NCBI RefSeq assembly: GCF_001720465.1
Contig: NZ_CP017113.1
Location: forward strand, 1,674,001 to 1,738,000
Source: Porphyrobacter sp. LM 6
GTDB lineage: Bacteria > Pseudomonadota > Alphaproteobacteria > Sphingomonadales > Sphingomonadaceae
Length of the DNA: 64,000 nt
Direction: 5' to 3'
The notes under the pieces were generated by a model, which was not told where the DNA came from, ran no database searches, and saw only the letters and a list, made by a program, of their open reading frames with translations. This document shows, one piece after another, positions 8,260 to 31,951 of this stretch (the first letter of the stretch is position 1; each line of letters opens with the position of its first letter). A program made the position numbers and the translations under genes.

Positions 8260-8403
8260 ATGCCTCTCACAGAGAACCAAGCGAAGAATGCCAAGCCGCT
8301 GGAGCGCGCTTACAAGCTAGCCGACAGCGAAGGTCTGTTTCTGCTCGTCCAGCCGAACGGCGCGAAACTTTGGCGGATGAAGTACCGCTTTGCAGGCAAG
8401 GAG
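8260..8403 (+). pseudogene. Truncated tyrosine-type site-specific integrase (N-terminus only)
   Basis: Starts MPLTENQAKNAKPLERAYKL and continues with ADSEGLFLLVQPNGAKLWRM and KYRFAGKE, the DUF4102 N-terminal arm-binding domain of P4-type integrases. About 48 residues survive. After codon 48 the reading frame runs into antisense sequence of the P-type ATPase fragment, so the core-binding and catalytic domains (R-H-R-Y) are missing. The SD GGAAAGGAG and the ATG are intact. It sits 177 nt inside the left end of the island next to tRNA-Met, the normal place for the integrase. With the catalytic half deleted the island cannot excise on its own enzyme. Confidence 0.85.
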
Positions 8404-12673: not shown

Positions 12674-12764
12674 TTGCTCGGGGATCAACCGGCAACGAAT
12701 GGCCTCCCTCCAGTGCAAGCCGCTTTGGTGTCAATTTTGTTATTCGCCTCAGCGGGAGAGCGAA

Positions 12765-15356
12765 ATGGCACGACGCCGACTTCTGACCGGAGACGAGCGC
12801 CGGCGCCTGTTCGATCCTCCTGTCCAAGAAACCGCGATCATTGGGCATTATACCCTTTCTGCGGAAGATGTTGAATTGGTTGGGCGCCGCTATGGTCCAG
12901 CAAATCGCCTCGGTCTGGCTGCACAAATCGCTTTGATGCGACATCCCGGCTTTGGTCTGCAACCCGAGATCGGGCTTCCCGACGTCATTCTTCAGTACCT
13001 CGCGGCACAGTTATTCGTCGATCCTTCCTCCTTCTCTGCATATGGTCAGCGCGCGCAAACCCGTACCGATCATGCCGATCTCGTGGCGCGTTATCTTGGC
13101 ATACGCCCGTTTCGACGCGGCGACCTGGCACTTGCCCTGAATCTTGCCGCGCAAGCCGCCGAGTATACAGACAGAGGTGAACCGATTGTTCGCGCCCTCA
13201 TGGTTGGCCTGAAGGGTGAGCGGTTCATTCTTCCGTCAGGCGACACACTGGAACGCGCCGGTCTTGCTGGCCGGGCACGCGCACGCAAAGCTGCCGCAGC
13301 CGCAATCGTCGAAGGCCTCAGCTCTGCTGAACTGACACGGCTAGACGAACTCGTAATCAACAACCCGGATTTCGGCATGACACCGCTGGCGTGGTTGCGT
13401 AATTTCGAAGAAGCCCCGACTGCGGCCAATATCAATGGCTTGCTTGAGCGCCTGCGCTATGTTCGCGGCATAGGTATCCACCCGGTAGTTGGGGGCGCCA
13501 TTCCGGAATTCCGCTTTGCCCAATTTGTCCGCGAGGGCGGCGTGGCACCGGCATTCCTGCTTTCGGATTACAGCGTCAATCGCAGGCGGGCGACGTTGAC
13601 GGCCGCAGTGATCGACCTTGAGGCCAGACTTGCCGATGGCGCGATCCAAATGTTTGACCGACTTATCGGCGGCATGTTCACGCGCGCGCGGCGTGGGCGC
13701 GAGCGTCGCTACCAAGATAGTATTCAGTCGGTGGGGCAACTCATGCGGCTGTTTGGCGCCACGATTACAGCACTTGATGAGGCTGTCCAGAATGGCGGCG
13801 ATCCGCTCGAATTGATTGACGAAGCGGTGGGCTGGCACCGGCTTGTTGCGGCAAAGGCCCAAGTAGATGCCCTTGCTGATCTTGCCGGCGAGGACGCACT
13901 GGTAACGGCAACCGAGCGTTACGCCACGCTACGGCGTTTCAGCCCGGCATTTCTGGACGCCTTCACCTTCAAGGCGTCTGGAACAGGGACGGCACTGATC
14001 AAAGCCATCGATGTCATTCGCGATGCGAACACACGAAAGTCGCGCGACCTTCCCGATGGCGTTCCACTGCCATTCCCCAATCGGCAGTGGAAGCGTCTCA
14101 TCACCGAAAGCGGCCGTATCGACCGCCGACGTTATGAAATTGCGATCATGGCAACCTTGCGTGATCGTTTGCGCGCCGGTGATGTATGGATCGAGGGAAC
14201 CCGCAACTATCAGCGCTTCGATGCCTATTTGCTGGGTCGGCGCGACGCCGCCAAAGTGGCGGATGTGCTTCCGTTCGATTCAAATGCTGCATCCTACCTC
14301 GCTGACCGGGCACGAAATCTTGACTGGCGGCTGCGCCGATTTGCCAAGCAGTTGAAAACAAACAAGCTTGAGGGAGTGTCGCTCGAACGAGACCGGCTCA
14401 AGCTTCAGCAAATGCCGCCTGTCACCCCACCGGAAGCTGAAGCCCTCGATCGCAAGCTCGATACCCTGCTTCCCCGCGTGCGCATCACCGAGCTGCTGCT
14501 TGAAGTCGCCGAACGCACTGGTTTTTTGAACGCATTCCGTGACCTGCGCTCAGGCAAGGAGCACGACAACCCCAGCACGGTACTCGCCGCAATTCTGGCT
14601 GATGGCACCAACCTCGGGCTGGAGCGGATGGCCAATGCCAGCGAAGGCGTCAGCTATGCCCAACTCGCATGGACCCACAACTGGTATCTTTCACCCGAGA
14701 ACTATCAGGCCGCGCTGGCCATGATCATCTCAGCCCATCACGAATTACCCTTCGCGCGGCATTGGGGCGCTGGCACCAGTTCGTCGTCCGATGGCCAGTT
14801 CTTCCGGTCGGGGCGGAGCCGTTCAGGGGCGGCGGACGTCAATGCCAAATATGGCGCCGAACCTGGCGTGAAAATCTATTCTCACCTTTCCGATCACTTC
14901 GCATCATTCGGATCACGGATCATGTCCGCGACGGCAGGTGAAGCGCCTTACGTGCTCGACGGGCTTGTCCTGGGCGCCGGCAACCTTCCGTTGCATGAGC
15001 ACTATACCGATACCGGCGGCGCCACCGATCATGTTTTCGCACTCTGCCACCTACTCGGGTTCCGCTTCGCGCCCCGGCTGCGCGATATTGGCGACCGCAA
15101 GCTGGGTTCGATCGCTGCGCCATCGACATACAAGGGCATCGAAAATCTGATGGGCCGCACCATCAAAACGGCAGCGATCGAGGCCGATTGGGATGACATC
15201 GTCAGGATTGTCGCCTCAATCAAGGATGGCACGGTGGCGCCGTCAGTAATCTTGCGAAAACTTGCCGCCTACAAACGCCAGAACAGGCTGGATTTTGCAT
15301 TGGCTGAACTGGGCCGTATCGAGCGCACTTTGTTCACGCTCGATTGGCTTGAACAA
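12765..15356 (+). pseudogene. tnpA: Tn3-family transposase TnpA, 3'-truncated
   Basis: The frame from MARRRLLTGDERRRLF at 12765 encodes about 864 residues of a Tn3-family DDE transposase (full length normally near 960-1000). The N-terminal DUF4158 DNA-binding region and the central domain are complete. The first catalytic aspartate region is in AAILADGTNLGLERM and the second in KIYSHLSDHFASF. The protein ends at TLFTLDWLEQ; the expected C-terminal segment with the third acidic residue (NKGE region) and the right inverted repeat are missing. At about 15356 the sequence switches to antisense CzcA. The transposon therefore cannot transpose on its own. Confidence 0.9.
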
Positions 15357-15937
15357 GCGAGGCCAGCTTCTGCACATCGGGCACTACAAGAAACTGCTTG
15401 GCATAGCCGCCGATCGAATCGACGCCGGCAAGGCCTGGGGTGCCCTTGAGCAGAGGGGTGACAATCCAGTCCTGTGCCGTTCGCAAATAGGTCGCCTTGT
15501 CGACTTCGGTCGTCAGCCGCTCACCCTCGGGCGTGATATAGCTACCGTCCGGCTGCTGGCCCGGTTCGCCCGGCTTGTGCTTGTCGTCATCGCGGTGGTC
15601 TAGCCGGACCGTGTACATGTACACTTCGCCCAAGCCGGTCGCGATCGGGCCCATTTCGGGGTTTACACCATCGGGGAGGTTTTCCTGCACCCCCTGCAAC
15701 CGCTCACCCACCTGCTGGCGTGCGAAGTAGATGTCCGTGGAGTCGGAAAATACGGCCGTGATCTGGGCAAAGCCATTGCGGCTCAGGGATCTTGTGTATT
15801 CAAGACCCGGGGTCCCGGCGAGCGCCGTTTCGATCGGGAAAGAGACCTGCTTCTCGACCAGTTCGGGTGACAGCGCGGGCGCTCGGACGTTGATCTGCAC
15901 CTGGTTGTTGGTGATAACCGATTGAGGGAACCCGGGC
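15355..15937 (-). pseudogene. Fragment of a CzcA/CusA-type heavy-metal RND efflux pump
   Basis: About 190 residues of the N-terminal periplasmic (porter) domain of a heavy-metal RND inner-membrane pump. Recognisable blocks are TNNQVQINVRAPALSPE, then EKQVSFPIETALAGTPGLEY, SLSRNGFAQITAVF and TDIYFARQQVGERL (each read in part), and the unusual insertion rich in Asp/Gly (DHRDDDKHKPGEPGQQ). The amino end lacks the first transmembrane segment; the carboxyl end stops at VPDVQKLASL where it fuses with tnpA. A full-length pump would be about 1050-1080 aa. It is a remnant of a former CzcABC locus. Confidence 0.85.
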
Positions 15938-16180
15938 CTTGCCGGACATGTCCATCGTGCATCCCGATGTATCAGCCTTCATCGCGGAGCATTTGCACGC
16001 GGCGGCGTTCGCCACGTCATCGCTGATCCATACGCGGACAAGCGCCGGCGTTGTTGGTCTGGGCCCTAGTTGAGAGCGGGAGCGCCATTCCCAATGGCCG
16101 CCTTCAGGCGCATGGGCGGAAGCGGCAGAGACGGGGACTAGAAGCCCTATCGCAGCGGCGAGCAAAAGTCTTGTCTTCAT
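15932..16180 (-). pseudogene. Small exported Cys/Met-rich protein of metal-resistance loci, fused at 3' end to the CzcA remnant
   Basis: Starts MKTRLLLAAAIGLLVPVSAASA (signal peptide) and continues HAPEGGHWEWRSRSQLGP, then a short domain with the motif CKCSAMKADTSGCTMDM. From memory this resembles small uncharacterised exported proteins found beside CzcABC genes in sphingomonads; no function is known. After GKAR the frame runs without a stop into the wrong frame of the CzcA fragment, so its own terminus appears to have been lost in the deletion, though only a few residues may be missing. The Cys and Met spacing suggests metal binding in the periplasm. Confidence 0.6.
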
Positions 16181-16763: not shown

Positions 16764-17492
16764 TCAATGATGGTCGTACAGCCCACGATTACGGATGTTG
16801 TTCCAACTGTCGGTGGTGTGGCATGCAACACATTGATTGACCGGAGCGCGTTCCCTCGCAACGCGCTGAGAGACCATCTCGAAGTGCATCATGAAGTGAC
16901 TGGGCGGTGCCTTGTGGCACCCGGCGCACTGGCGTGAGTTGACAGATGGGTGCCTGAAGGCGTCGATCTTCCAGTCGACCACAGCATGGCAATTCTGGCA
17001 GTCCTTGCCGAACGAACCTTGATGCCGATCGCGCGCCGCATGGCAGCTTACGCAATTGAGCGCGTCCGTGGTCTCTGGATGTGTTTTCGAGATGCGTGCA
17101 TCTCGGGGCCGAAGCGGACCGCGCCAAAGGTCTGGATCGAGCAAGGCCTCATGATCCATGCGAGCAAGGCTCGCGCCCCCGTCATGTTCAACATGACAGC
17201 TTGTGCAGTCTTTCGCTTTGGCATGAAAACGGGTCGACGCCTTGGTCCCGAAATCGGTTTGGATGTGGCAGGTGATGCATTTCTGCGCCTCAACGCCTTG
17301 GTGCGGTGTGTGGCAGGTTTCGCAATTGCGCCGAAGCGAGGCGTGAGCGGGCGACAAAGGTCCAGGTTCAATCAGCGCGGTCCAACCTGCAATCGCGCGG
17401 CTTCCAGCGGAATGGGTCGTCAGCGGGACGATGACGACGAGCATCGCCAGTACGAGGGCATATATGCCGTAGAGGAGGCGCGCGCCATTCAC
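16764..17492 (-). CDS. Seven-heme c-type cytochrome (multiheme, cytochrome c3-like)
   Basis: A 242-aa protein with one N-terminal membrane anchor (LLYGIYALVLAMLVVIVPL) and seven CxxCH heme sites: CETCH (57), CITCH (72), CTSCH (96), CVSCH (147), CQNCH (165), CAGCH (189) and CVACH (221). Additional histidines between them (HTPHQG, RFHAK, HVEHD, FRHPS, SHFMMHFE) can serve as distal ligands. This is a periplasm-facing electron wire. The GTG start at 17492 overlaps the TGA of the upstream cytochrome b-like gene (GTGA), giving tight translational coupling; a GTG two codons earlier is also possible. It is the last gene of a three-gene electron-transfer operon. Substrate and partner are unknown. Confidence 0.85.
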   Translation of the reverse strand: MNGARLLYGIYALVLAMLVVIVPLTTHSAGSRAIAGWTALIEPGPLSPAHASLRRNCETCHTPHQGVEAQKCITCHIQTDFGTKASTRFHAKAKDCTSCHVEHDGGASLARMDHEALLDPDLWRGPLRPRDARISKTHPETTDALNCVSCHAARDRHQGSFGKDCQNCHAVVDWKIDAFRHPSVNSRQCAGCHKAPPSHFMMHFEMVSQRVARERAPVNQCVACHTTDSWNNIRNRGLYDHH

Positions 17493-18217
17493 AGCCACCG
17501 AAACCCGAAATAATAGCCAGCCCAGATGTGGAGCAGCAGCAGCGCATAGAGAAGTGTGCTGGTGACGACATGGATCGCTCGCCATCCCCCAAACAGGCCG
17601 GCAGCCGCGCGTTCGGCGCGCACGGCGTATTCGGCATCGGCAAGAGCCTCGGCACGTCGTCTGGCATCAGCGATATCGGTGAGCTCGAATTCGTCGGCCG
17701 GGGCGAACAAGAACCGCCAACCTTTGCTTTTCGCTCGACCTTCGCCTGCAATGGGCACGGCACTTGCAAGATCCGCGTCGAGTCCCAAGCGGAGCGCTGC
17801 AAGTTCGGATGTGCGGGCGCGGACGGCTCTTGTGATCTGGACCAGGAAATAACGACCGACAAACCCGCTCCAGACGACCAGTATGACAGTGCCGGTCAGT
17901 GCGATGCCGAGCGGGCTCTCGAACTTGTGTGCCGCGTGGACAAGTGCGAGGATTGGCCCCGCCACACCCGCATAGATGTGTATCGCCAGCAAAGTCCGCT
18001 TCTCGATCCTATGATCGAGCCATCGTCCAAAACGCCCAATACGCCGAGCTGCGACATGGACGAGAGGAAGGAGCATCAGTACCGCAGCCGCGATCCCGAT
18101 CAAGCTTCCCGCCAGACTGCCGGGAAAGCGCGGCGACGCGTGAACCACGAAACCGAGTGGAAAGAGAAGCACGAAGGCTGCCGCCAAGGTCATCAAGATG
18201 TCGCCGCGCTCGCGCAT
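17489..18217 (-). CDS. Cytochrome b-like integral membrane protein
   Basis: 242 aa with about five hydrophobic segments: ILMTLAAAFVLLFPLGFVV, LIGIAAAVLMLLPLVHVA, LAIHIYAGVAGPILALVH, ALTGTVILVVWSGFVGRYFL, and VVTSTLLYALLLLHIWAGYY. Paired histidines spaced 13 residues apart within helices (HIYAGVAGPILALVH; IHVVTSTLLYALLLLH) are typical of bis-His heme b sites. A roughly 80-residue soluble loop sits between helices four and five. It starts with ATG sharing its A with the TGA of the reductase-ferredoxin gene and overlaps the multiheme gene at its end. It would move electrons from the cytoplasmic flavin/Fe-S module to the periplasmic cytochrome c. Assignment to cytochrome b is from these patterns, not from a full family match. 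Confidence 0.7.
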   Translation of the reverse strand: MRERGDILMTLAAAFVLLFPLGFVVHASPRFPGSLAGSLIGIAAAVLMLLPLVHVAARRIGRFGRWLDHRIEKRTLLAIHIYAGVAGPILALVHAAHKFESPLGIALTGTVILVVWSGFVGRYFLVQITRAVRARTSELAALRLGLDADLASAVPIAGEGRAKSKGWRFLFAPADEFELTDIADARRRAEALADAEYAVRAERAAAGLFGGWRAIHVVTSTLLYALLLLHIWAGYYFGFRWL

Positions 18218-20133
18218 CAGGCTTCCACCACCAAAGGGCCTCGGGTGCAACGTGCCTGACAGGCGAGCACATAGCCTTGTGCCCTGTCGTCGGGGTCGAG
18301 ACCGGTCTCGGTCTCCATCGCGATTTCCCCTGCTAGCAGGCGGGTAACGCAAACCCCGCATTCGCCGACCCGGCACGAATAGGGGATCTCAACACCGGCT
18401 GTTTCGGCAGCCTCGAGGATCGTCTCGTCGGTGTGGAGTGGCGCCGAAACGCCGGCTACCGAGAAGGTTACCGTAGTTGCCGCCAACCGTGCACGGGCCG
18501 ACGCAGCGGGCGGGGGGGCCGCCTGCGCGGCACTCTGCTCGCCAGGTTCATCGATCGGCAGCGAAGCGGGTCCGAACGCCTCGCTGAATATCTGCGCCTC
18601 GGGCACCCCGATCTGCATCAGGATTTCGCGCATGGCGGCCATCATTGGCGGTGGCCCGCACAGATGGACGCGCCGTCCGACGATTTCGGGAACCGCGCTT
18701 TCAAGCAACTCGCGGGTGATGTGTCCTTTGGGTCCATGCCAGACCGTTCCCGGCGATCGTTCCATCGATGCAAAGACACTGAGATTGGGGTGGCGGCGCT
18801 CGAGCTGTTCGATCTCCTCCCGGAAGACAAATTCGTCGGTCGAGCGGGCTGCGAAGACGAAGAAAATCTCGCCGGGCCAGGCCGTATCGGTCAGGAAGCG
18901 CAGTACTGACATCATCGGCGTGATGCCGACGCCGCCGGCAATCAGAACGATGCTCTCAGCATCGCTCCCGGTGAAGGTGAAACGGCCGAATGGTCCTGCA
19001 ATTTGAACCAGGTCGCCGGTCGTGACGCTATCGTGCAGATGGCGTGAGACAGCGCCCTGCGTCTCGCGCTTGATGGTCAATTCAACATAGGCGCGCTGCG
19101 TCGGTGAAGAGGCGATCGTGTATGACCGCTTGGCTTTGGTGCCGTCCTCCTTCAATACTTCGATTTGCAGGAACTGGCCGGGCAGGAAGTCGAAAGGAAG
19201 CCGATCGGAGCCTGGGAGCACCAAGCGGAAGGTCTTGACTGTCGGCGTTTCGTTGAAGATCTGGGCGACGCGCAGCTCGCCGCTCCAGGGGCGAGGTTTG
19301 CCCGTGGGGGCAAGACCAGACAAATCCGGTTGGCGTGTCGGCCAGACTGCAGGGCTCGAGATGCGCTGGCTGGCGGCATCCTGGCCTGGGGCGACCGGTG
19401 CCGGGCTCGTCAAGTCGGCTACCGGGCCCGCGTGCGGAACCGGGACGACAAGTGCCCTTACTCGCCGTAGCCGCAGCATCTGCAGAGCTAACAGCGCTCC
19501 CAATGCGAGCAGGGTGGCTGCCATGAACAGCCAGTGTCCCGGCGCAAGGCCCCACAGCCGTCCGGTGTTCGAAGTGCTCGCATCGCGGGGTGTGAGCCCG
19601 GTCTCCTTGCGAAACCAGTCATTCGCCGCGCTGTCGCTGTTTTTTTGGCCTGCTAGTACGGCGATCATGGCCGATCCGCTTTCAATCAGCGTCGCTGCCT
19701 CGCGAAGCTGGTTGGCCATCTCAATCCCGTCAGGCTGTTCCGGACCATGGGCTTTGCTTGTGATCTCGCTGGCAATGCTCAAGCCGCGGTGAAGTCGCGC
19801 ATTCGCTTGCGCCGCGGCATCCTTTCGCGCAGCCTCATCGAGTTCGGGCAGTGCCAGAAAAGCGGAATAGCTGCTGAACTGCTGGCTCAGCTGACTCTCG
19901 CCGCCTGTCATCTGTTCCATCATTTCGCTCATGGGGCTGGCGCGGCTCATGCTGGATTGCGCCGGAACGTCAGACTGGGCCACTGGCCTCTCCGCGCTCG
20001 CCGACGCGGCTTTGCCACCGGGATGGTGCGCGGTGTGATTGGCGACAGATTGTGCGGCTGCCGCCTGGCCGATGACGGCCGCAGCCGCGATGAAGAGTAT
20101 CCGCGCCGGGCGTTCTGCGAAGACGAAGTTCAT
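18217..20133 (-). CDS. Membrane-anchored FAD/NAD(P) oxidoreductase fused to a 2Fe-2S ferredoxin
   Basis: A 638-aa fusion. Residues 1-27 are a signal sequence; 28-198 a helical, Met/His-containing periplasmic segment (MSEMMEQMTGG); 199-222 a membrane span (GHWLFMAATLLALGALLALQM); 285-520 a ferredoxin-NADP+-reductase-like module with FAD motif RSYT (336-339), NAD(P) motif GVGITPMMS (401-409) and CGPPPMM (492-498); and 550-638 a plant-type 2Fe-2S domain with CRVGECGVC (Cys587, 592, 595) and Cys625. The order matches phthalate-dioxygenase-reductase-type modules tethered to the membrane. It is probably the electron entry point, taking electrons from NAD(P)H to the cytochrome b-like protein next to it (1-nt overlap). 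I know of no named family with this N-terminal domain. Confidence 0.8.
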   Translation of the reverse strand: MNFVFAERPARILFIAAAAVIGQAAAAQSVANHTAHHPGGKAASASAERPVAQSDVPAQSSMSRASPMSEMMEQMTGGESQLSQQFSSYSAFLALPELDEAARKDAAAQANARLHRGLSIASEITSKAHGPEQPDGIEMANQLREAATLIESGSAMIAVLAGQKNSDSAANDWFRKETGLTPRDASTSNTGRLWGLAPGHWLFMAATLLALGALLALQMLRLRRVRALVVPVPHAGPVADLTSPAPVAPGQDAASQRISSPAVWPTRQPDLSGLAPTGKPRPWSGELRVAQIFNETPTVKTFRLVLPGSDRLPFDFLPGQFLQIEVLKEDGTKAKRSYTIASSPTQRAYVELTIKRETQGAVSRHLHDSVTTGDLVQIAGPFGRFTFTGSDAESIVLIAGGVGITPMMSVLRFLTDTAWPGEIFFVFAARSTDEFVFREEIEQLERRHPNLSVFASMERSPGTVWHGPKGHITRELLESAVPEIVGRRVHLCGPPPMMAAMREILMQIGVPEAQIFSEAFGPASLPIDEPGEQSAAQAAPPPAASARARLAATTVTFSVAGVSAPLHTDETILEAAETAGVEIPYSCRVGECGVCVTRLLAGEIAMETETGLDPDDRAQGYVLACQARCTRGPLVVEA

Positions 20134-20159
20134 GTCACGCCAATTGCCGGCCCAATTGC

Positions 20160-20501
20160 CTACATGTCGCTCATTGGCATCGGATCCGCCTTGTCCTTGG
20201 GCGCAGGCTCGGGAGCGGGCTTGTTCCCCATGCCCTTCATCGCGTGGCCGTGGGCGCCGTCCGGCCCCATCTGGTCAGTGGGCATCGCCCCGTCCTGCAT
20301 GGAATCGTGCATGGCCTGACCCTCGTTCATCTGATCGTGCATTTCGCGGGCAACTTCTGACGCATTGTCTTCCGGAATGCTGGTATCGGTACTGGTGGCA
20401 GCGACATTGTCGGCCTCTGACGCCGGGCTACAGGCACCGAGCGCTGCGGCGTTCACGAGCGCCGATACAATCGGGGTCCATTTGTGGCTTAGCAAAGTCA
20501 T
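20160..20501 (-). CDS. Met/His-rich lipoprotein
   Basis: 113 aa. A signal peptide with a lipobox-like ALGAC is followed by a disordered acidic chain rich in Met, His, Asp and Pro (EMHDQMNEGQAMHDSM, GPDGAHGHAMKGMG, DPMPMSDM). Such Met/His clusters bind Cu(I)/Ag(I) in other copper proteins. It lies 26 nt before the reductase-ferredoxin fusion on the same strand and 86 nt after the MerR gene, so it is probably the first structural gene of that operon. The function is unknown; periplasmic metal binding or delivery to the electron conduit is inference. Confidence 0.65.
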   Translation of the reverse strand: MTLLSHKWTPIVSALVNAAALGACSPASEADNVAATSTDTSIPEDNASEVAREMHDQMNEGQAMHDSMQDGAMPTDQMGPDGAHGHAMKGMGNKPAPEPAPKDKADPMPMSDM

Positions 20502-20587
20502 GATCGTTCCTTTCTTCTGAATGGGATTTCGCCGTTAAGCAGCGCTGGCTGACCAAGGCCGTGCGCGGGAGACGCCTTGCGGCTAGG

Positions 20588-21046
20588 TTAGCCAGCAACC
20601 TGCTGATGGGGGTTTTCAGACCGCTGCCTGAGCTGGCGACGGGATTGCGGATGGGCGATATACCCGAGGATCGGGCAGTCACTGACAGGCACATCCACAG
20701 GACAATCCGCAACAAGCTGAGCAAGAGCTCTTTTGATTGTTCGGAGCTGCGACAGCTTGTCTGACAGGCTGCGGATCTTCTTTTCTGTCAGTTCGACAAC
20801 CTCGGCAGCAGACTTGGCCTGAGAGTGCCGCAACGATAACAGCAGCACGATCTCGCTCAGGGTAAACCCGAGCAGCTGCGCGGTCTTGATGAAGTTGACC
20901 CGTTCGACATCGTCGCGCCCATAGATGCGATAGCCGGAGGCCGTCCGGTCGGGTTCGGGCAAAAGACCAGAGCGCTCATAATAGCGAATGGTATCGCGCC
21001 GCACGCCACATGCTGAAGCCAGCGCCCCGATGGTGTAACCTTGCAT
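20588..21046 (-). CDS. MerR-family metal-responsive regulator
   Basis: 152 aa. N-terminal HTH (IGALASACGVRRDTIRYYERSGLL) and dimerisation helix, then an effector tail with Cys115 and Cys124 in VADCPVDVPVSDCPI. The two-Cys metal loop is like that of the CueR/ZntR/CadR type, but the Cys spacing alone does not decide Cu(I) or a divalent metal. It is transcribed toward the lipoprotein and electron-conduit genes. It may also act on the MerR-type promoter at 21762-21793 that faces the Cys-rich copper-storage-like gene. Confidence 0.88.
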   Translation of the reverse strand: MQGYTIGALASACGVRRDTIRYYERSGLLPEPDRTASGYRIYGRDDVERVNFIKTAQLLGFTLSEIVLLLSLRHSQAKSAAEVVELTEKKIRSLSDKLSQLRTIKRALAQLVADCPVDVPVSDCPILGYIAHPQSRRQLRQRSENPHQQVAG

Positions 21047-21168: not shown

Positions 21169-21519
21169 TCATTTGCGGCTGAGCTCGACGATGTCGTGCT
21201 CCTTGAGCTTGCCGTCGGTCACCTGCGTGCGAGCAAAATGATCATCGATGATCTCGGTGATCTTGACCTCGCCAACCTTCACCCGCTTGTAACTCGTCTG
21301 CTCGGGTCGGTGCGCGTGCCGGTACTCAACCCGGTAAACATCCAGAACCTGACCGGTCTGCGCGCCGTCGGCCTTGCCGATGCAGATCACCGGGCCCGTA
21401 TCCTCCATCGCGACGACGTGTCCGCGCATGAAAAAGCTGTGCCCCATGCCCTGGGCGATCGACGGTGAAGCGCTGATCAGCGCGGCGCCGATCAGCAGGG
21501 ATGCGAAAATTTTCTTCAT
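21169..21519 (-). CDS. Exported hypothetical protein
   Basis: 116 aa with a clear signal peptide (MKKIFASLLIGAALISASPSIA). The mature chain reads as beta-rich with alternating hydrophobics (HVVAMEDTGPVICIGK, LDVYRVEYRHAHRPE, VKVGEVKITEIIDDHFARTQV) and a basic C-terminus. One cysteine is present. I cannot assign a family, although the pattern resembles small periplasmic beta-barrel/OB folds. An SD, GGAGCAACG, precedes the ATG. It is read leftward, 122 nt before the MerR gene, and is divergent from the copper-storage-like gene. Confidence 0.65.
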   Translation of the reverse strand: MKKIFASLLIGAALISASPSIAQGMGHSFFMRGHVVAMEDTGPVICIGKADGAQTGQVLDVYRVEYRHAHRPEQTSYKRVKVGEVKITEIIDDHFARTQVTDGKLKEHDIVELSRK

Positions 21520-21833
21520 GTCACGTTGCTCCTTCGAAAAAGGCCGCCGCCGCTGTCGCAGCCAGCGATTAAACCGTTAATCATGCACGCATAATCAGCA
21601 CTTTGGGCAGACATACGTCGGGGCGAGAAGGCGCATGGTCCATGTCTGATCGCAGCACCGAACGGGCTTATGCACCTTCGACCATGGTCATAGGTCAAGG
21701 GAAATCTGGATCATTGATCTTCGTCAAAATGCGATCAGAAAAAATCCCAAAAATCGAACATTGACCCGGGACCGTAGTCCGGAGGGTAGAACGCCAAACG
21801 ACCTGACAAAGGTCTCAACTCGTTTGGAGAAAG
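21520..21833. other. Divergent intergenic region (314 bp), no gene seen
   Basis: It separates the leftward exported protein and the rightward Cys-rich gene. It is AT-richer than the surroundings. The only recognisable element is the MerR-type promoter at 21762-21793. No convincing coding frame. Confidence 0.5.
21762..21793 (+). promoter_or_regulatory. MerR-type promoter upstream of the copper-storage-like gene
   Basis: TTGACC and TAGAAC are separated by 20 bp holding the imperfect dyad GGAC-CGTA-GTCC (CCGGGACCGTAGTCCGGAGG). The overlong spacer with an internal dyad is typical of MerR regulation; the ATG at 21834 is about 40 nt downstream. Confidence 0.6.
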
Positions 21834-22169
21834 ATGATGTCGAACAACCATCTCGATTGCCTTGCCGCATGCAACGCCTGCGCAGATGCCTGCGATACTT
21901 GCACCGTCTCATGTCTCAGGTCAGATCATGTTGAGGCCATGACGCGATGCATCGAGCTCACGCTCGATTGCGCAGCCCTTTGTCGTCTCGCGGCTAGTTT
22001 CGTCGCGCGCAAAAGCAGCTTCGCCAAGCAGCTTTGTGCGCTCTGTGCGGAGGTATGCGAAAGCTGCGCCGCTGAATGCGGACAACATGCTCATGATCAC
22101 TGCCAGGCTTGTGCAGCTGCATGCCGCATATGTGCCGACGAATGCCGCAAAATGATCGCAGCTTCCTGA
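21834..22169 (+). CDS. Cys-rich four-helix-bundle copper-binding/storage protein (Csp/DUF326-like)
   Basis: 111 aa with 19 cysteines arranged as CxxC/CxxxC on predicted helices: CLAACNACADACDTCTVSC, CALCAEVCESCAAEC and CQACAAACRICADEC, plus C39, C46, C50. This is the Csp (copper storage protein, DUF326) pattern, in which cysteines lining a four-helix bundle bind many Cu(I). There is no signal peptide, so it belongs with cytosolic Csp3-like members. The start is at 21834 (MMSNN) after GGAGAAAG; the second ATG is equally possible. It lies beside the Cu(I) ATPase and a MerR-type promoter, so it probably buffers cytoplasmic copper. Confidence 0.85.
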   Translation: MMSNNHLDCLAACNACADACDTCTVSCLRSDHVEAMTRCIELTLDCAALCRLAASFVARKSSFAKQLCALCAEVCESCAAECGQHAHDHCQACAAACRICADECRKMIAAS

Positions 22170-22365: not shown

Positions 22366-24717
22366 TCACAGAGAAATCTGTCGAAGCCGCAACGAATTGC
22401 CGATCACGCTCACCGAAGACAGCGCCATGGCCGCAGCAGCAATGATGGGTGACAGCATGATCCCGAATACGGGATAGAGTATTCCCGCTGCCACCGGAAT
22501 GCCTGCGACATTGTAGGCAAAGGCAAAGAACAGGTTTTGGCGGATGTTTTTCATGGTAGCATGGCTGAGGCGGCGAGCGCGCACAATCCCGGTCAGATCA
22601 CCTCTCAGCAAGGTTACGCCGGCGCTCTCGATCGCGACATCGGTCCCCGAACCCATCGCGATACCCACATCTGCGGCCGCCAGTGCCGGTGCATCGTTTA
22701 CTCCATCGCCGGCCATGGCGACGATGCGTCCTTCATCCCGCAGCCGTTTCACGATCGCGCTTTTCTGATCCGGTAGCACATCGGCTTCAACATCCGCAAT
22801 GCCGAGACGCCGGGCGATTGCTTCGGCGGTGACGCGATTGTCACCTGTCAGCATGATGACATGAATGCCTGCTTGAGCCAGGGCAAGGAGCGCTGCGGGC
22901 GTCGTCTGCTTGACCGGATCGGCGATGCCGATGGCGCCGGCAGCCTGGCCGTCGATGCCAAGAAAAATGGCTGTTGCGCCCTCACTGCGCAGGTCATCTG
23001 CGCGCTCCGCAAGGGCGCCCAGCTGGATGCCCTGTTCGCCAAGAAAACGAGCATTGCCCGCAACGAGGCTGCGGCCATCGACCTGGCCGATGATGCCCTT
23101 GCCGACGGGTTGATCGACATTGGTCGGCTCGCTGATCGCGAGGCCTCTGATTTCGGCTTCGCGTACAATCGCCAACGCCAGCGGATGTTCACTACTGCGT
23201 TCAAGACTGGCGGCAAGGCGAAGAAGATCGTCCTCATCGAAGCCGCGAGCGGTTTCGATGGCGACGACAGCCGGCTTGCCTTCCGTCAGTGTTCCGGTCT
23301 TGTCGACCACCAGCGTGTCGATCTTCTCCATACGCTCGAGGGCTTCAGCGTTCTTGATCAGGATGCCGGCCTGCGCGCCGCGTCCGACGCCCACCATGAT
23401 TGACATCGGCGTGGCCAGACCAAGCGCGCAGGGGCACGCGATGATCAAGACGGCCACGGCTGCGATCAGGCCATAACCCATAGCCGGTGACGGTCCGACC
23501 AGTGACCAGGAGACGAAGGCTATGGCAGCGACAGCGATGACTATTGGCACAAACCAGCCAGAAACGGTATCGGCAAGCCGCTGGATCGGTGCCCGGCTGC
23601 GCTGGGCATCGGCAACCATCTGGACAATGCGCGCGAGCATGGTATCGCGCCCGACTCGTTCCGCACGCATGATCAGACCCCCGGTCTGATTGATTGTACC
23701 GCCAACCAGTTTGGAACCAGCTTCCTTGCTCACCGGCATCGATTCCCCGGTGACCATGGATTCGTCGATCGTGCTGCGGCCCTCGACGACCGCGCCATCG
23801 ACGGGCACTTTTTCTCCCGGACGCACGCGCAACGTGTCGCCGACCAGGACCTGGTCCAGCGCAATCTCTTCATCGCTGCCATCATCGCGAACACGGCGAG
23901 CGAGCTTGGGGGAGAGATCGAGCAATGCACGAATCGCGCCGCTGGTCGTCTCCCGGGCCCGCAATTCAAGCAGCTGGCCAAGCAGGACGAGCACCGTGAT
24001 AACCGCTGCGGCTTCGAAATAGACAGCAACCGAACCGTCATCGGAGCGAAACGCTGCCGGAAATATTCCCGGCACCAGAGAGGCGGCCATGCTGTAGATC
24101 CAGGCGACCCCGGTCCCCATGGCAATCAGCGTAAACATGTTGAGACTGCGACTTTTGATCGATGCCCAACCGCGCTCAAAAAATGGCCAGCCCGCCCACA
24201 AAACCACAGGTGTTGCCAGCACCATCTGGATCAGGTTTGCAAGTTTTCCGTCCAGAACATGACGCAGGCCTGTCATGTGCCCACCCATTTCGAGCGCGAC
24301 CACCGGCAAGGCGAGCAAGAGGCCGATCGCGAAGCGGCGCTTCATATCCTTGTATTCGTCCGATGGCCCATCGCTGAGGGTCGGGGTCATTGGCTCAAGC
24401 GCCATGCCGCAGATCGGACAGCTTCCTGGGCCGGACTGCTGGATCTCCGGATGCATCGGACAGGTCCAGATTGCGTCTTCAGGAACAGGACTGTCCAGTC
24501 GCGGTGAACCGCTTATGTACCGGCCAGGATCGGCAGTGAACTTAGTAAGACAGCCCGCGCTGCAAAAAAAGTGATGGGCTCCAGCTTGGGTCACGACATG
24601 CTTTGTGGTTTCAGGATTGACCCTCATCCCGCAGACCGGATCCGTCGCCATCTTTTCTGCTGTGGAGTGAGGATCAGCATCCTCACCATGGTGACGCGGT
24701 GTCTCGGTCATAATCAT
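22366..24717 (-). CDS. Cu(I)/Ag(I)-transporting P-type ATPase (CopA/SilP-like)
   Basis: 783-aa inner-membrane ATPase that exports Cu(I) (or Ag(I)) from the cytoplasm. Before the first membrane helix there is a YHS-like domain ([13 protein letters not shown]) at 25-68 and a heavy-metal-binding domain with the CPMHPE...[10 protein letters not shown] block at 86-108, instead of the usual HMA repeats. Catalytic motifs: TGES (323-326), transmembrane CPC (428-430), DKTGTLTEG (472), the SEHPLAL nucleotide motif (509-515), [16 protein letters not shown] near 665. Two adjacent ATGs (24717, 24711) are possible starts. It is convergent with the Cys-rich copper-storage-like gene. Confidence 0.95.
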
Positions 24718-27403: not shown

Positions 27404-27613
27404 CCACCGGCCGCCGAATTTAGGCGCGGGGACTATGGCTGATCCCGAGTGAGCCAGTGCGTCTCGCCGATAAAGCTGGTCATCGTCATGCAAAGCGGCC
27501 ATCGCAAGCAAGTGCGCTGATCGCCCCGAGCTGACGCCTATCCTGCGCAGCAGCCGATTCCGCCCTGCTAGCATAGTTCACCACTGCAAAAGTCGAGAGA
27601 CGCGAAAAAAATT

Positions 27614-27640
27614 TGAGGGGTGTCCGGATCAGGCGCGTAT
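27614..27640 (+). promoter_or_regulatory. ECF-type promoter, copy 3 (copABCD operon)
   Basis: TGAGGG (27614-27619), N15, GCGTAT (27635-27640). The -10 ends 8 nt before the ATG at 27649, so the transcript would begin at or next to the start codon. Confidence 0.75.
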
Positions 27641-27648
27641 ATGCTTGT

Positions 27649-29526
27649 ATGAACACTCCGATCCTTACCCGCCGCCACCTGATTGCAGGCCTCGGTGCCG
27701 CGTCAGCCTTTGCCACAGTGCCTGCCTGGGCGCAGGGTCACAACATTCACCGCGATCAGGGAGGCGGTCACGGTCGGGGTGGCCCGCTCATTCCTGCTGG
27801 GTTCGGTGAGCTTTCCGGCGAAGTGATCGATCTGACCGTGGCCAGCGGTCATCGCATCGTCGAAGGACGGCGTGGTCCCGGTGTCGCGGTCAACGGGAGC
27901 GTACCGGGTCCCTTGATCCGCTTGCGCGAAGGGCAGAACGTCCGTCTCAATGTCACGAACAAACTGGGTTCGGACACGTCAATCCATTGGCACGGCCTGC
28001 TCGTTCCATTTCATATGGATGGTGTTCCCGGCGTGAGTTTCCCTGGCATTCATCCCGGCCAGACATTCAGCTACGAATTTCCGATCCGGCAGGCGGGGAC
28101 CTATTGGTATCACAGCCATTCAGGCCTGCAGGAACAGTCGGGGCATTATGGCCCTCTGGTTATCGATCCGTCTGGTCCGGAGCCTGTCGAATTTGACCGG
28201 GACTACATTCTGCTTCTCAGCGATTTCACGGTGCTCGACCCGCATTTCATCATGAGCCGTTTGCGCACCGGTGAAGGCTATTTCAATCGCCAGCAGAGCA
28301 CCTGGACCGACGACTATCCGCTGTCTGCGCAAGAGCGACGCATGTGGGCCCAAATGCGGATGATGCCCACCGATATCATGGATATCGGCTCTCCGACCTA
28401 CACCTTCCTTGCCAATGGGCGAGGGCCGACCGAGGGGCTTGAATACCTGTTTCGTGCCGGTGAGCGCGTGAGGTTGCGGGTCATCAACGGCTCGGCGCAG
28501 AGCTTCTTCAACGTCCGCATTCCCGGCTTGGCAATGACCATCATCGCCGCAGATGGCCAGAACGTCCGGCCGGTTGAAGTCGATGAATTTCAGATCGGCA
28601 CGGCAGAAACCTATGACGTGATTGTCACGCCGGGCAATGCCGAGGCCTATGCCATAGTCGGTGAGTCGATGGATCGGTCGGGAATGGCGCTGGCCATGCT
28701 GGCGAGCCGTCCCGGAGCGCGGGCGGATGTACCCGCTCTGCGCGATCCACCGCTGCTGACGATGGGCGACATGGGCATGGATCACGGCTCGGGCGGCATG
28801 GACCATAGCGCGCCTTCTGCCGATACCGGTGCCAAGGAAGCAATGGGTAGTGTGGGCCCCATGGACCATGCGGCGATGGGTCATGCCACACCAGATGCAT
28901 CAATGGGCGCTTCGGATGACACTATGGCCGGAATGGCAATGGGCGGCATGAGCATGGCCGGCATGAAGATGCGCGACACAACACTGCTGCCTCCCGATGT
29001 CAAGGTCGGCCCGGGCGTCGACATGGTTTCGATGTCTCCGGTGGACAAGATGGGAGATCCCGGTCTTGGCCTGCGCGACGTGGATCACCGCGTGCTCAAC
29101 TATCGCATGCTGACGGCGCTTGAGCCGAACCAAGACACGCGCGAACCTTCGCGGCTCCTCGAGCTGCATCTCACGGGCAATATGGACCGCTACATGTGGT
29201 CTTTTGACGGAAGAATGTACTCTTCTGTCAGTGATGTTCCAATCCGCTTCGCCTGGAACGAGCGGGTCCGGGTGAAGCTCATCAACAATACCATGATGGC
29301 GCACCCGATCCATCTTCACGGCATGTTCTTCGAGCTGGTCAATGGTGCCGAGCCAGCCCATCAGCCTCGAAAGAACATCGTGATCGTGCAACCGGGCGCC
29401 AGCGCTCAGTTCGACCTCACTGCCAACGAGCCGGGTGACTGGGCGTTCCACTGCCACCTGCTTTACCACATGCACGGCGGCATGATGCAGACCGTGACCG
29501 TGGTCGGCCCGGGCGGTGCAGCATGA
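27649..29526 (+). CDS. copA: Copper resistance multicopper oxidase CopA (Tat-exported)
   Basis: 625-aa periplasmic multicopper oxidase that oxidises Cu(I) and binds copper. It starts MNTPILTRRHLIAGLG with a twin-arginine signal. Copper ligands are present: IHWHG (113-115), YHSHSG (155-157), HPIHLHG and HCHLLYHMH near the C-terminus. A central Met/His-rich insert (MGDMGMDHGSGGMDH, MAMGGMSMAGMKM) is characteristic of CopA/PcoA. The ATG is only 8 nt downstream of the -10 and no SD is visible, so translation may be leaderless. copB overlaps its stop (ATGA). Confidence 0.95.
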   Translation: MNTPILTRRHLIAGLGAASAFATVPAWAQGHNIHRDQGGGHGRGGPLIPAGFGELSGEVIDLTVASGHRIVEGRRGPGVAVNGSVPGPLIRLREGQNVRLNVTNKLGSDTSIHWHGLLVPFHMDGVPGVSFPGIHPGQTFSYEFPIRQAGTYWYHSHSGLQEQSGHYGPLVIDPSGPEPVEFDRDYILLLSDFTVLDPHFIMSRLRTGEGYFNRQQSTWTDDYPLSAQERRMWAQMRMMPTDIMDIGSPTYTFLANGRGPTEGLEYLFRAGERVRLRVINGSAQSFFNVRIPGLAMTIIAADGQNVRPVEVDEFQIGTAETYDVIVTPGNAEAYAIVGESMDRSGMALAMLASRPGARADVPALRDPPLLTMGDMGMDHGSGGMDHSAPSADTGAKEAMGSVGPMDHAAMGHATPDASMGASDDTMAGMAMGGMSMAGMKMRDTTLLPPDVKVGPGVDMVSMSPVDKMGDPGLGLRDVDHRVLNYRMLTALEPNQDTREPSRLLELHLTGNMDRYMWSFDGRMYSSVSDVPIRFAWNERVRVKLINNTMMAHPIHLHGMFFELVNGAEPAHQPRKNIVIVQPGASAQFDLTANEPGDWAFHCHLLYHMHGGMMQTVTVVGPGGAA

Positions 29527-30611
29527 ACGTCCGGCCCCTCGTCTCACTCTTCCTTGCGGGAGCGTCCCTGAGCGCAGCACCGGCGATGGCCCAGCATCAG
29601 GGGCATGACATGCCAATGCCGATGCCGCCACCGGCGCCGGCGCCGGCCCCGAGTCCGGCTCCCGCACCGCAGCAGCCAGATCCCCACGCCGGGCATGTGA
29701 TGCCCGATCGTCCTGCCGCATCCGAAGAGGAAACGGTCGATCCGCACGCAGGCCATACCATGCCCGAAGGATCAATGCCGGCTCCCGATGCCATGGCCGA
29801 CATGAAGCAGGAAACCATGGATCACAGCGCCATGGATGGCGCCATGCCTGCCTCGCCCGGGCCCGAGATGGAAACCCCCCCGCCGCCAGAGGCGGGGAGC
29901 GGTCCTCCGCGCGCCGCCGACGCCATCTGGGGCGCCGATGCAATGCGGGCCTCGCGAGACGATCTCAGGCGCGAAAGCGGTGATTTCCCGGTTTTCTGGT
30001 TTCAGGGTGATCGTTTGGAAATCCATGCCCGCGAGGGTGCAGAAGACTACATCTGGGATTTTCAGGGGTATTACGGCGGTCCAACGAGCCGGTTCTGGTT
30101 CAAAACTGAAGGTGAGGGAGCCTTCGGCGACAAGCCCGAAAGCGCTGAGTTTCAAGCCCTCTATTCACGTGCGATCAGGCCATTCTGGGATCTCCAGGCC
30201 GGTGTGCGCCAGGACCTCGCAGGACCCGATACGACCTATGCCGTTCTGGGCATCCAAGGCGTTGCGCCCTATCTCTTTCAGGTTGATGCGGCGGCTTTCG
30301 TCTCACAACGCGGTGACGTTACGGCAAGGATCGAGGCAGAGCTCGACCAGCGTATTACCCAGCGCCTGATCTTCCAGCCTCGTGTTGAGATCAACATGGC
30401 TGCCCAGGACATTCCGATCCTTGGCGTCGGAGCGGGCATCGACAAGGTCGAGGCTGGCTTGCGTTTGCGTTACGAGATTATCCGCGAGTTTGCGCCTTAC
30501 ATCGGGATCGAACAGACGTGGCGCATTGGCAACGGCGCGGACTTCGCCCGCGCCCGCGGCGAGGATCCGAGTGCCACCAACTATCTTGTCGGCATCCGGT
30601 TTTGGTTTTGA
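29523..30611 (+). CDS. copB: Copper resistance outer-membrane protein CopB
   Basis: 362 aa. A signal peptide (MNVRPLVSLFLAGASLSAAPAMA) precedes a disordered Met/His/Pro-rich segment (residues 25-120, HDMPMPMPPPAPAPAPS, MDHSAMDGAMPAS). From about 160 the chain is a beta-barrel with alternating pattern and aromatic C-terminus (NYLVGIRFWF), the OMP type of CopB/PcoB. It probably sequesters Cu and spans the outer membrane. ATGA overlap with copA indicates coupled translation. Confidence 0.93.
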   Translation: MNVRPLVSLFLAGASLSAAPAMAQHQGHDMPMPMPPPAPAPAPSPAPAPQQPDPHAGHVMPDRPAASEEETVDPHAGHTMPEGSMPAPDAMADMKQETMDHSAMDGAMPASPGPEMETPPPPEAGSGPPRAADAIWGADAMRASRDDLRRESGDFPVFWFQGDRLEIHAREGAEDYIWDFQGYYGGPTSRFWFKTEGEGAFGDKPESAEFQALYSRAIRPFWDLQAGVRQDLAGPDTTYAVLGIQGVAPYLFQVDAAAFVSQRGDVTARIEAELDQRITQRLIFQPRVEINMAAQDIPILGVGAGIDKVEAGLRLRYEIIREFAPYIGIEQTWRIGNGADFARARGEDPSATNYLVGIRFWF

Positions 30612-30627
30612 AATGAAGGACAATCCA

Positions 30628-31017
30628 ATGAAATTTGCTTCGATTTTCGCCGCTCTTGCAGTGGTTGCGTCGCCTTTGGCACTCCCATCGATGGCTTCTG
30701 CTCACACTCGCGTTGTCGCCTCTACTCCGGCAGAGGGCGCAACCGTTGCTGGCACGCGCACAGTCACGCTGACTTTCAATGAAGCGCTGTTGCCCCCCAC
30801 TGCTGCTGCCAGCATCGTAATGACGGCGATGCCGGGGATGGCAAATCACAGTCCGATGGCGATCCGCAATTTCACCACTGCCTGGTCGAACGGGAACAAG
30901 ACCATGACCCTCACGCTTACCAAACCTTTGGCGAAGGGCAGCTATGAGGTGCGCTGGCAAGCCGCAGGTGCTGATGGTCACCGCATGAACGGCACTGTCA
31001 AGTTTACCGTCAGCTGA
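30628..31017 (+). CDS. copC: Periplasmic copper chaperone CopC
   Basis: 129 aa. Signal peptide (MKFASIFAALAVVASPLALPSMASA) then mature HTRVVASTPAEGATVAG, where the N-terminal His is the canonical Cu(II) ligand exposed after signal-peptidase cleavage. Further CopC elements are RTVTLTFNEALLPP, the Met-containing MTAMPGMANH and the closing YEVRWQAAGADGHRMNGTVKFTV. An SD, GAAGGA, favours the ATG at 30628 over the one 15 nt upstream. It precedes copD by 7 nt. Confidence 0.95.
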   Translation: MKFASIFAALAVVASPLALPSMASAHTRVVASTPAEGATVAGTRTVTLTFNEALLPPTAAASIVMTAMPGMANHSPMAIRNFTTAWSNGNKTMTLTLTKPLAKGSYEVRWQAAGADGHRMNGTVKFTVS

Positions 31018-31024
31018 TCGCGCT

Positions 31025-31951
31025 ATGGGGTGGGCGATCGAACCTGGTTTGCGTTTTCTGAATTACGCGGTGCTCCTGGGGATGTTCGGGAGCACCGCGT
31101 TTCGATTAATCGCGCTTCGGAGCGCCCACTTTCTCTCTGTCGGTAATCGGACGTCGCTAGGCCTGATCGGGGGGGCTGCGGCTGCATTCGTTCTCTCCGT
31201 CGTTCTTATGCTCGTCTCGGTGGCGGCAATGATGGGCATGCCCCTATCCGACCTTGACTGGCCGACGATCTCCATGATGGCGTTCGGCACGGATATCGGT
31301 ATTGCATTTGCCGTTCGCATCATCCTGCTGTTTCTCGCATTATGCTTTCTTGTCGCCGTCAGGGCCACGAAACTCAGCCAGGTAGCCGTCGCCGCCTGTT
31401 TCGCAGCGGCACTTCTCTCGCTCGGATGGAGCGGTCACGCCGCTGCTGGCGAGGGAGGCATCGGGCTCCTGCATCGGCTCAACAATGGCGCACACCTGAT
31501 TGCCGCAGGTTTGTGGCTTGGCGCCATCATTTGCTTTGTTGACCTCACTGTGAAGTTGCATCGGCGGCCGGATCGGGAGCAGGCTCTCGCATTGCTTTCG
31601 CAGATCCATGCGTTCGCGCCGCTCGGCGTGGGCTTGGTGGCAGTGGTGGCCATCACGGGCCTCATAAATTCCCAGCTGATATTCGGTATTCAAAACAGCT
31701 TGGTCGTTCTGAGTACGCCTTATGGGTTGATGCTGGCTGCCAAACTGATCCTCGTCGGCGGCATGGTTGCGTTCGGAGCCAACAACGCGGCGATTGGACG
31801 CCGTTTCGCAACGTCTGGTGAACCATCGGAAAATTCGGTGCACGACGTGCTAGCGCGGTTGCGCCTCAGTCTGGGAGGTGAGCTTTGTCTTGCCGTCGGC
31901 GTTCTGGGCCTCGTAGCTGTTCTGGGCCTCGCGTCGCCAGGAATGCTGTAG
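31025..31951 (+). CDS. copD: Inner-membrane copper protein CopD
   Basis: 308 aa with about eight hydrophobic helices (YAVLLGMFGSTAFRLIAL, AAAAFVLSVVLMLVSVAAM, IAFAVRIILLFLALCFLVAV, QVAVAACFAAALLSLGWSGHA and others). The CopD/PcoD family takes copper from CopC into the cytoplasm. Histidines in SGHAAAGEG and RLNNGAHLIAAGLWLGA are conserved in the family. It directly follows copC. A start at 31025 (MGWAIEPGL) fits family N-termini. Confidence 0.93.
   Translation: MGWAIEPGLRFLNYAVLLGMFGSTAFRLIALRSAHFLSVGNRTSLGLIGGAAAAFVLSVVLMLVSVAAMMGMPLSDLDWPTISMMAFGTDIGIAFAVRIILLFLALCFLVAVRATKLSQVAVAACFAAALLSLGWSGHAAAGEGGIGLLHRLNNGAHLIAAGLWLGAIICFVDLTVKLHRRPDREQALALLSQIHAFAPLGVGLVAVVAITGLINSQLIFGIQNSLVVLSTPYGLMLAAKLILVGGMVAFGANNAAIGRRFATSGEPSENSVHDVLARLRLSLGGELCLAVGVLGLVAVLGLASPGML

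Follow-up and report, generated by a model that had tools for sequence, protein, structure and literature searches.

The window analysed here is a 64,000-nucleotide stretch of Porphyrobacter sp. LM 6 (positions 1674001-1738000 of its single-contig genome of 2,979,257 bases), and it carries on its minus strand three tightly packed genes with the anatomy of an electron conduit across the inner membrane. In the order of transcription they encode a flavin and iron-sulfur fusion protein of 638 amino acids (18217..20133), a cytochrome b-like protein of 242 amino acids with five transmembrane (TM) helices (17489..18217), and a membrane-anchored, putatively heptaheme cytochrome c, also of 242 amino acids, with a GTG start (16764..17492). 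We refer to these three genes as the cassette. The fusion and cytochrome b genes overlap by 1 nucleotide (TGATG) and the two cytochrome genes by 4 nucleotides (GTGA). On the same strand the cassette is preceded by the gene of a Met/His-rich lipoprotein (20160..20501; 113 amino acids, lipobox LGAC, 12 Met, 5 His), which ends 26 nucleotides before the fusion gene, by a MerR-family regulator gene (20588..21046), and by the gene of a small exported protein that is conserved with the cassette (21169..21519; 116 amino acids, no Pfam match). A preliminary description of this locus had listed the regulator, the lipoprotein and the three cassette members, with the same overlaps and spacing, and the coordinates bear it out on each of these points.

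The fusion starts with a signal peptide, followed by an HxxHH motif at residues 33-37, a Met-rich segment predicted to be periplasmic and one TM helix. Its predicted cytoplasmic part consists of FAD_binding_6, NAD_binding_1 and Fer2 domains, each above the Pfam cut-off, in agreement with the flavin, nicotinamide and [2Fe-2S] modules first recognized there. Hydropathy of the cytochrome b-like protein gave five clear TM stretches and two marginal ones, of which one overlaps helix 2 and the other falls in the loop leading to the last helix. The two His pairs noticed earlier, each with 13 residues between partners, fall in the third (H80/H94) and fifth (H216/H230) of these helices. No Pfam family reached its cut-off for this protein, and its AlphaFold model had a predicted local distance difference test score (pLDDT) of 83.1. 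The cytochrome c has an N-terminal signal anchor, a PPSHxMxHFxM motif and matches above cut-off to Cytochrome_C7 and Cytochrom_c3_2; all seven of its reported CxxCH motifs were located, starting at residues 57, 72, 96, 147, 165, 189 and 221.

We collected 30 loci, of which 25, the window included, were counted as intact. Outside the 25 were two loci at contig ends (L003, L038), one in which the fusion gene is cut by an insertion sequence (L015) and two with broken frames (L057, L059); L011 was kept in spite of a short fusion frame without the N-terminal motif. Five loci with a distant cytochrome b and no fusion found (L046-L050), together with further weak matches, were excluded from all cassette counts. 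Mapped across genomes in the way the preliminary description had proposed, the three cassette genes share a strand and a fixed order in 25 of the 30 loci. Gaps within these 25 range from -4 to +5 nucleotides between the fusion and cytochrome b genes (mode -1) and from -16 to +1 between the cytochrome genes (mode -4); gene starts were chosen by script, and individual values may shift. The hosts are Alpha-, Beta- and Gammaproteobacteria and Bacteroidota, and many of the loci are plasmid-borne. Pairwise protein distances of the three members, calculated for 22 loci, correlate at 0.90-0.94, against a maximum of 0.55 in 5,000 label shuffles per pair. Since the three genes co-occur in a fixed order with correlated distances, they travel and evolve as one unit. 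Chance does not account for the cassette, because its gene order recurs in 25 loci and because alignments of 22 to 46 sequences show no variation at the putative heme and cluster ligands.

The cytochrome b gene is rare in whole genomes. Strong cytochrome b matches (E below 1e-45) were found in 3 of 385 genomes of a class sample and 7 of 398 of a phylum sample, the window's own genome included in both, and among 61 relatives there were two matches at E 1.4e-40 or better and three weak ones (7.7e-9 to 6.6e-4). A tblastn search of plasmids with the cytochrome b returned 52 of 72,556 records at E 1e-5, among them plasmids of Sphingobium, Alteromonas, Rhizorhabdus, Legionella, Variovorax, Spirosoma and Pontibacter. 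In Sphingobium sp. SYK-6 the plasmid gene related to the cytochrome b adjoins a gene annotated '2Fe-2S'.

In the cytochrome b, residues H26, H80, H94, H97, H216 and H230 are invariant in alignments of both 43 and 46 sequences. Among the cytochrome c sequences, no Cys or His of the seven motifs varies; in L041 one motif is spaced as CxxxCH. Further invariant His number nine in 23 cytochrome c sequences and eight in 44, enough for seven bis-His hemes, so that this protein looks like a wire rather than a catalytic site. All 22 aligned fusions share the HxxHH that follows the signal peptide (H33, H36 and H37), M75 and H200 ahead of the TM helix, the key FAD and NAD(P) residues and the four Cys of the putative [2Fe-2S] cluster. 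The HxxHH motif was present in 24 of 24 fusions, followed by 2-9 Met in the next 60 residues; this set left out L003, L011, L015, L038, L040 and L059. It was also present in the 26 fusions of a second alignment, which contains L038 and L040. A constant His/Met tail within an otherwise poorly conserved segment suggests metal binding.

Exported proteins rich in Met also tend to precede the cassette. An exported open reading frame with 5-15% Met lies directly upstream of the fusion gene in 15 of 24 loci; the filter missed an annotated exported gene overlapping the fusion start in L012 and L053. Such upstream proteins matched LTXXQ (L043) and Metal_resist (L037) above cut-off, and Metal_resist below cut-off in L052. 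Homologues of the Met/His lipoprotein occur in L001, L002, L003 and L009, and those of the small exported protein occur upstream of the cassette in 11 of the 30 loci, window included (among them L009, L010, L012, L014, L016, L051 and L053).

We then considered the genetic setting. Beyond the small exported gene, the window holds a divergent gene for a Cys-rich four-helix copper-storage-like protein (21834..22169, plus strand; DUF326, Csp1-like; 42.4 bits to TIGR04401, below the cut-off of 100), a copper P-type ATPase-like gene named by eye from its translation (22366..24717, minus strand), and a multicopper oxidase gene with copB-, copC- and copD-like genes (27613..31951, plus strand; copB at 29523-30611, the others named by eye). 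The CopB match to PF05275 at G000:C1:1704000-1704608 corresponds to window positions 30000-30608. Four families were mapped in the 30 records: CopB (PF05275), merA (TIGR02053, over cut-off only), Tn3 transposase (PF01526) and the [NiFe] hydrogenase small subunit (PF14720). Expected counts come from a chance model with uniform gene placement and with records treated as independent, and the identity of the L001-L003 contigs was checked through CopB translated within the loci. The copB gene lies within 20 kb of the cassette in 17 of 30 records, against 3.93 expected, and none of 200,000 simulations reached 17. Over the same distance merA was found in one record (1.44 expected), the window's own genome, and Tn3 in four (2.99 expected). 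With seven near relatives dropped, the counts were 11 of 23 for copB (3.2 expected), 1 for merA (1.3) and 3 for Tn3 (2.4). Since copB is enriched and merA and Tn3 are not, the copper link is specific among these controls, and the copper setting of the cassette is supported by controlled co-occurrence. The preliminary description had placed the genes in a Cu/Hg island and had named a lack of co-occurrence beyond it as a ground for refutation. That name suits the window, and copper is a general partner; mercury is not, and its link to the cassette is local to the window. Co-occurrence beyond the island was found, with copB nearby in 17 of 30 records (3.9 expected), and the conduit reading was not refuted on this point.

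The same picture came from 17 plasmid regions, chosen from the 52 matching records for taxonomic spread and not randomly, and read from incomplete gene tables. Their contexts are a varying mix of copAB, resistance-nodulation-division (RND) pumps, multicopper oxidases and copper ATPases, with DUF411, DUF305, four-helix copper-binding proteins and DUF1622 as further neighbours. Among the loci without copB inside 20 kb, L041 carries an RND pump, and L043 carries DUF411 together with a multicopper-oxidase domain.

The regulator is, as first described, a two-Cys MerR protein. Its metal loop has the form C-x8-C, and no Cys occupies the position of Tn501 C82, which we take to be the third mercury ligand of MerR. 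The C-x8-C loop, with no Cys at or near this position, was seen in the MerR nearest to the cassette in eight loci; in a further MerR of L014 the first Cys of the loop is missing. CueR also lacks a third Cys, and a two-Cys loop without it would favour monovalent metals. The best NCBIfam match of the window's regulator was TIGR02051 (MerR, mercury) at 130 bits, short of the cut-off of 150.85, and TIGR02044 (CueR, copper) gave 106.4 bits, short of 147.4. A MerR-type operator/promoter (21666..21699, minus strand) with TTGACC, a 20-bp spacer, CATAAG and the dyad ACCTATGACCATGGTCGAAGGT (ACCT...AGGT) precedes the small exported gene. Its score of 14.11 is above the 13.2 reached at most by 200 shuffles. 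L001 and L002 share the site, and L009 has a diverged version of it (13.4). Its position implies an operon longer than first given, probably comprising the small exported gene, MerR, the lipoprotein, the fusion, cytochrome b and cytochrome c. The extent originally assigned, 16764..21046, holds for the genes it contains, but its right edge is too short, with the small exported gene and the promoter lying upstream. On the Porphyrobacter contig of L003 (7958-9127), the frame of a P-type ATPase runs into the C-terminal end of MerR, so that the regulator looks lost or fused; the lipoprotein and fusion genes still follow.

The preliminary description had named no system of this combination, and the literature search likewise found no description of the cassette as a system. 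We compared its parts with known systems. One close likeness is to the FRE, NOX and STEAP proteins, which also draw on cytosolic NAD(P)H and a flavin and bind their b hemes through His residues in TM3 and TM5; their electrons flow outward, as by analogy they would here. In the ferric reductase domain (FRD) superfamily, four His serve as heme ligands, two each in TM3 and TM5 of FRE and NOX (PMC3591440), and FRE and STEAP can reduce Cu(II) (PMC3591440, PMC7558416). The cassette cytochrome b has these four His, H80 and H94 in helix 3 and H216 and H230 in helix 5, with a TM5 spacing of 14, compared with 13 in NOX2. Unlike FRE and NOX, in which the FAD and NADPH domains are fused to the heme domain, the cassette has its dehydrogenase in a separate gene in all 25 loci, and it differs from all three groups in adding a [2Fe-2S] domain, in having five TM helices and in placing a heptaheme cytochrome c beyond the membrane. 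PF01794 (Ferric_reduct) had no match in the window's cytochrome b; 16 of its 46 relatives matched at E up to 0.1, the best at 2.8e-4.

Other systems resemble the cassette in part. Membrane-bound Cu(II) reduction in Proteobacteria, proposed here, has been shown for CcoG, but CcoG has two tetranuclear iron-sulfur clusters; the only iron-sulfur matches in the fusion are of the Fer2 type and the cytochromes matched no iron-sulfur family, so that the cassette would have FAD, one [2Fe-2S] and b and c hemes instead. CbcL-type proteins similarly couple a diheme b to a multiheme c; CbcL is a single, quinol-fed protein, whereas the cassette would be fed by NAD(P)H and consists of three proteins. The fusion shares FAD_binding_6, NAD_binding_1 and Fer2, all above Pfam cut-offs, with BenC/PaaE-type reductases. 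These are soluble, whereas the fusion has a signal peptide, a segment resembling a metal-binding one and a TM helix before the domains; it reached no NCBIfam cut-off among the matches listed (25 of 33). The cytochrome c scored 21.5 bits against NrfH/NapC (TIGR03153, cut-off 134.2) and 24.8 bits against DmsE/MtrA (TIGR03508, cut-off 192.2), and has seven heme motifs, not ten. The cassette appears to be a variant among NAD(P)H-fed transmembrane metalloreductase-like conduits.

Taken with coevolution, this anatomy makes the reading as an electron conduit well supported. At the cytoplasmic face, the membrane-tethered fusion would accept electrons from NAD(P)H at its FAD domain and [2Fe-2S] cluster. 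Two b hemes, with H80/H216 and H94/H230 of the cytochrome b as ligands, would pass the electrons through the membrane, and the membrane-anchored heptaheme cytochrome c would carry them out into the periplasm. The preliminary proposal that cytoplasmic reductant is delivered to the periplasm fits both the gene anatomy and the correlated distances of 0.90-0.94. In copper islands, the HxxHH/Met-rich segment of the fusion, together with the Met/His lipoprotein, would present Cu(II). The product would be Cu(I), which is the form taken by CusA-type RND pumps, Csp storage proteins and Met-rich chaperones, and electron transfer from NAD(P)H to Cu(II) is energetically downhill. Overall, we read the locus as a mobile module under MerR control that transfers electrons across the inner membrane, with copper as the presumed inducer and Cu(II) as the most likely acceptor. 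We advance it tentatively, as very nearly an even call. A narrower proposal, possible though we would sooner doubt than assert it, is a dedicated NAD(P)H:periplasmic cupric reductase: a split FRE/STEAP-like complex, spread by plasmids over at least two phyla and re-used beside [NiFe] hydrogenase. Such a complex would comprise a cytosolic FAD-[2Fe-2S] arm, a bis-heme cytochrome b, a heptaheme arm and its own HxxHH/Met tail, with the two-Cys MerR as regulator in one lineage.

Several results weigh against copper as the acceptor and against the FRE-like comparison. Most Gram-negative copper defence oxidises Cu(I), and a system that produces Cu(I) would run against expectation unless export or storage were linked to it. 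In 13 of 30 records copB is more than 20 kb away or missing; it is absent from nine whole genomes or plasmids, and a tenth, W13, has only a sub-cut-off match. Of the 17 copB matches, W09 is partial, and W05 and W16 lie inside very long frames. No MerR-type promoter above the shuffle maximum was found in L010, L014, L016 and L040, four of the seven other MerR-bearing loci. Alignment by hhalign of the cytochrome b with 16 MsrQ-like FRD proteins gave a probability of 0.5%, from shallow profiles, and a PDB fold search returned nothing significant. Finally, the [NiFe] hydrogenase adjacency described below means that copper is not the sole setting of the cassette.

Instead of reducing Cu(II) directly, the conduit could keep Met-rich or Cys-containing periplasmic copper proteins reduced or repaired via a partner reductase encoded elsewhere. 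MsrQ, the membrane part of MsrPQ, is a YedZ-type FRD protein. YedZ belongs to the FRD superfamily (PMC3591440). MsrPQ is copper-induced and keeps CusF active (PMC9302797); like the cassette as proposed here, it uses a membrane heme protein to supply the periplasm with electrons. The Met-rich exported proteins that precede the cassette in 15 of 24 loci would be suitable clients, and the window's genome has no PF01794 match, hence no MsrQ was seen there. The cassette, however, has a heptaheme cytochrome in place of the adjacent molybdoenzyme MsrP. Neither an MsrP-like catalytic partner nor any methionine sulfoxide reductase is annotated in the 17 plasmid regions, within their incomplete gene tables, and seven hemes exceed the apparent need of such a partner, while the MsrQ profile went unmatched. 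We consider this explanation unlikely.

The hydrogenase-linked loci bring in a second alternative, in which the cassette would serve generally to link the NAD(P)H pool with any periplasmic redox enzyme encoded close by. On one plasmid each of Alteromonas macleodii (L012) and Glaciecola, the cassette is followed, after one gene, by a HynSL-type [NiFe] hydrogenase operon. PF14720 lies within 10 kb in 2 of 30 records (0.29 expected) and within 20 kb in the same number (0.59 expected). The preliminary description had offered as its own alternative a dedicated periplasmic reductase missing from the island, which may still apply; in these two loci the neighbouring enzyme is the hydrogenase. In the Alteromonadaceae the bridge would couple HynSL to NAD(P), possibly inward from H2 to NAD+. 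From the gene order in L012 we infer that the cassette cytochromes b and c correspond, respectively, to the published Orf1 and Cyt of A. macleodii. In E. coli these two members of the published cluster are dispensable for maximal HynSL activity (PMC3102683), as would be expected of an electron-transfer part; the excerpt of that account treats them as optional hydrogenase accessory genes and mentions neither a flavoprotein nor copper. The hydrogenase link is, however, confined to one bacterial family, and inward flow does not fit the copper islands because, to our knowledge, Cu(I) cannot reduce NAD+. Both hydrogenase-linked loci (L012, L053) moreover keep the HxxHH/Met motif and encode the small exported protein seen in the copper loci, which points to a likely common core function with different partners. 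A general bridge is rather improbable in our view.

Disposal of O2, H2O2 or superoxide in a copper-stressed periplasm by a terminal oxidase-like or peroxide-reducing activity, or NOX-like generation of superoxide, is less probable again. Copper brings oxidative stress, and a flavoprotein with a four-His cytochrome b has a NOX-like layout. However, an extra His follows the TM3 heme ligand by 3 residues here (H97) and by 4 in NOX (PMC3591440), and the invariant His, being enough for seven bis-His c hemes, argue against a site for O2 or peroxide. It is very improbable that the primary task is to reduce Hg(II), or one of the other soft metals considered (Ag, Au and tellurite). For mercury, the merA gene some 6 kb from the cytochrome b gene in the window and the TIGR02051 best match of the regulator are set against merA over cut-off within 20 kb in only 1 of 30 records (1.4 expected) and a regulator that falls below the MerR cut-off and has no Cys at the C82 position.

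Some further observations concern the surroundings of the cassette and its distant relatives. In the window, at 12633-16180 just downstream of the cassette, a Tn3-family transposase gene (292 of 389 model positions matched) adjoins what look like remnants of an RND efflux gene, named by eye and truncated, and a small secreted-protein frame. Also by eye, an apparently truncated piece of a heavy-metal P-type ATPase (8310-9038) marks the left edge of the mer region, and a glutaredoxin-like CPYG segment is joined to a multi-helix membrane part at 34173-34925. A DUF1622 membrane protein is encoded after or near the cytochrome c in L009 (10438-10866), L010, L016, L051 and L043; no such gene was seen immediately after the cytochrome c gene of the window. 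In L046-L050, the distant cytochrome b frames of 316-410 amino acids lie beside cytochromes with 19-34 CxxCH motifs, and in L049 (7827-10466) a Pyr_redox_3 flavoprotein and an ankyrin-repeat protein are encoded near them; this arrangement may be a second, unnamed NAD(P)H-to-multiheme cluster related to the cassette. Pentose phosphate and nucleotide-salvage genes lie near the cassette in L042 (15800-19897), L045 (576-12741), L009 (12171-17496) and L058 (13076-15483), in varying sets that include glucose-6-phosphate dehydrogenase, 6-phosphogluconate dehydrogenase, transaldolase, thymidine phosphorylase and ribose-phosphate pyrophosphokinase. Within a few kilobases of the cassette, L042 has both dehydrogenases and phosphoglucose isomerase, and L045 has 6-phosphogluconate dehydrogenase and transaldolase; the 6-phosphogluconate dehydrogenase of L009 is annotated as NAD-dependent. 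These neighbours would fit, perhaps, a supply of reductant for the conduit.

If the reading of the cassette as a copper-linked conduit is true, then a conserved and mobile line from NAD(P)H to the periplasm would supply a bacterial counterpart to the eukaryotic FRE and STEAP reductases, and copper-resistance islands would bring their own source of reductant with them. It would also explain plasmid genes that are at present annotated merely as 'hypothetical', 'iron reductase' or 'cytochrome c3 family', and the electron partner of the Alteromonas HynSL hydrogenase would become a testable question.

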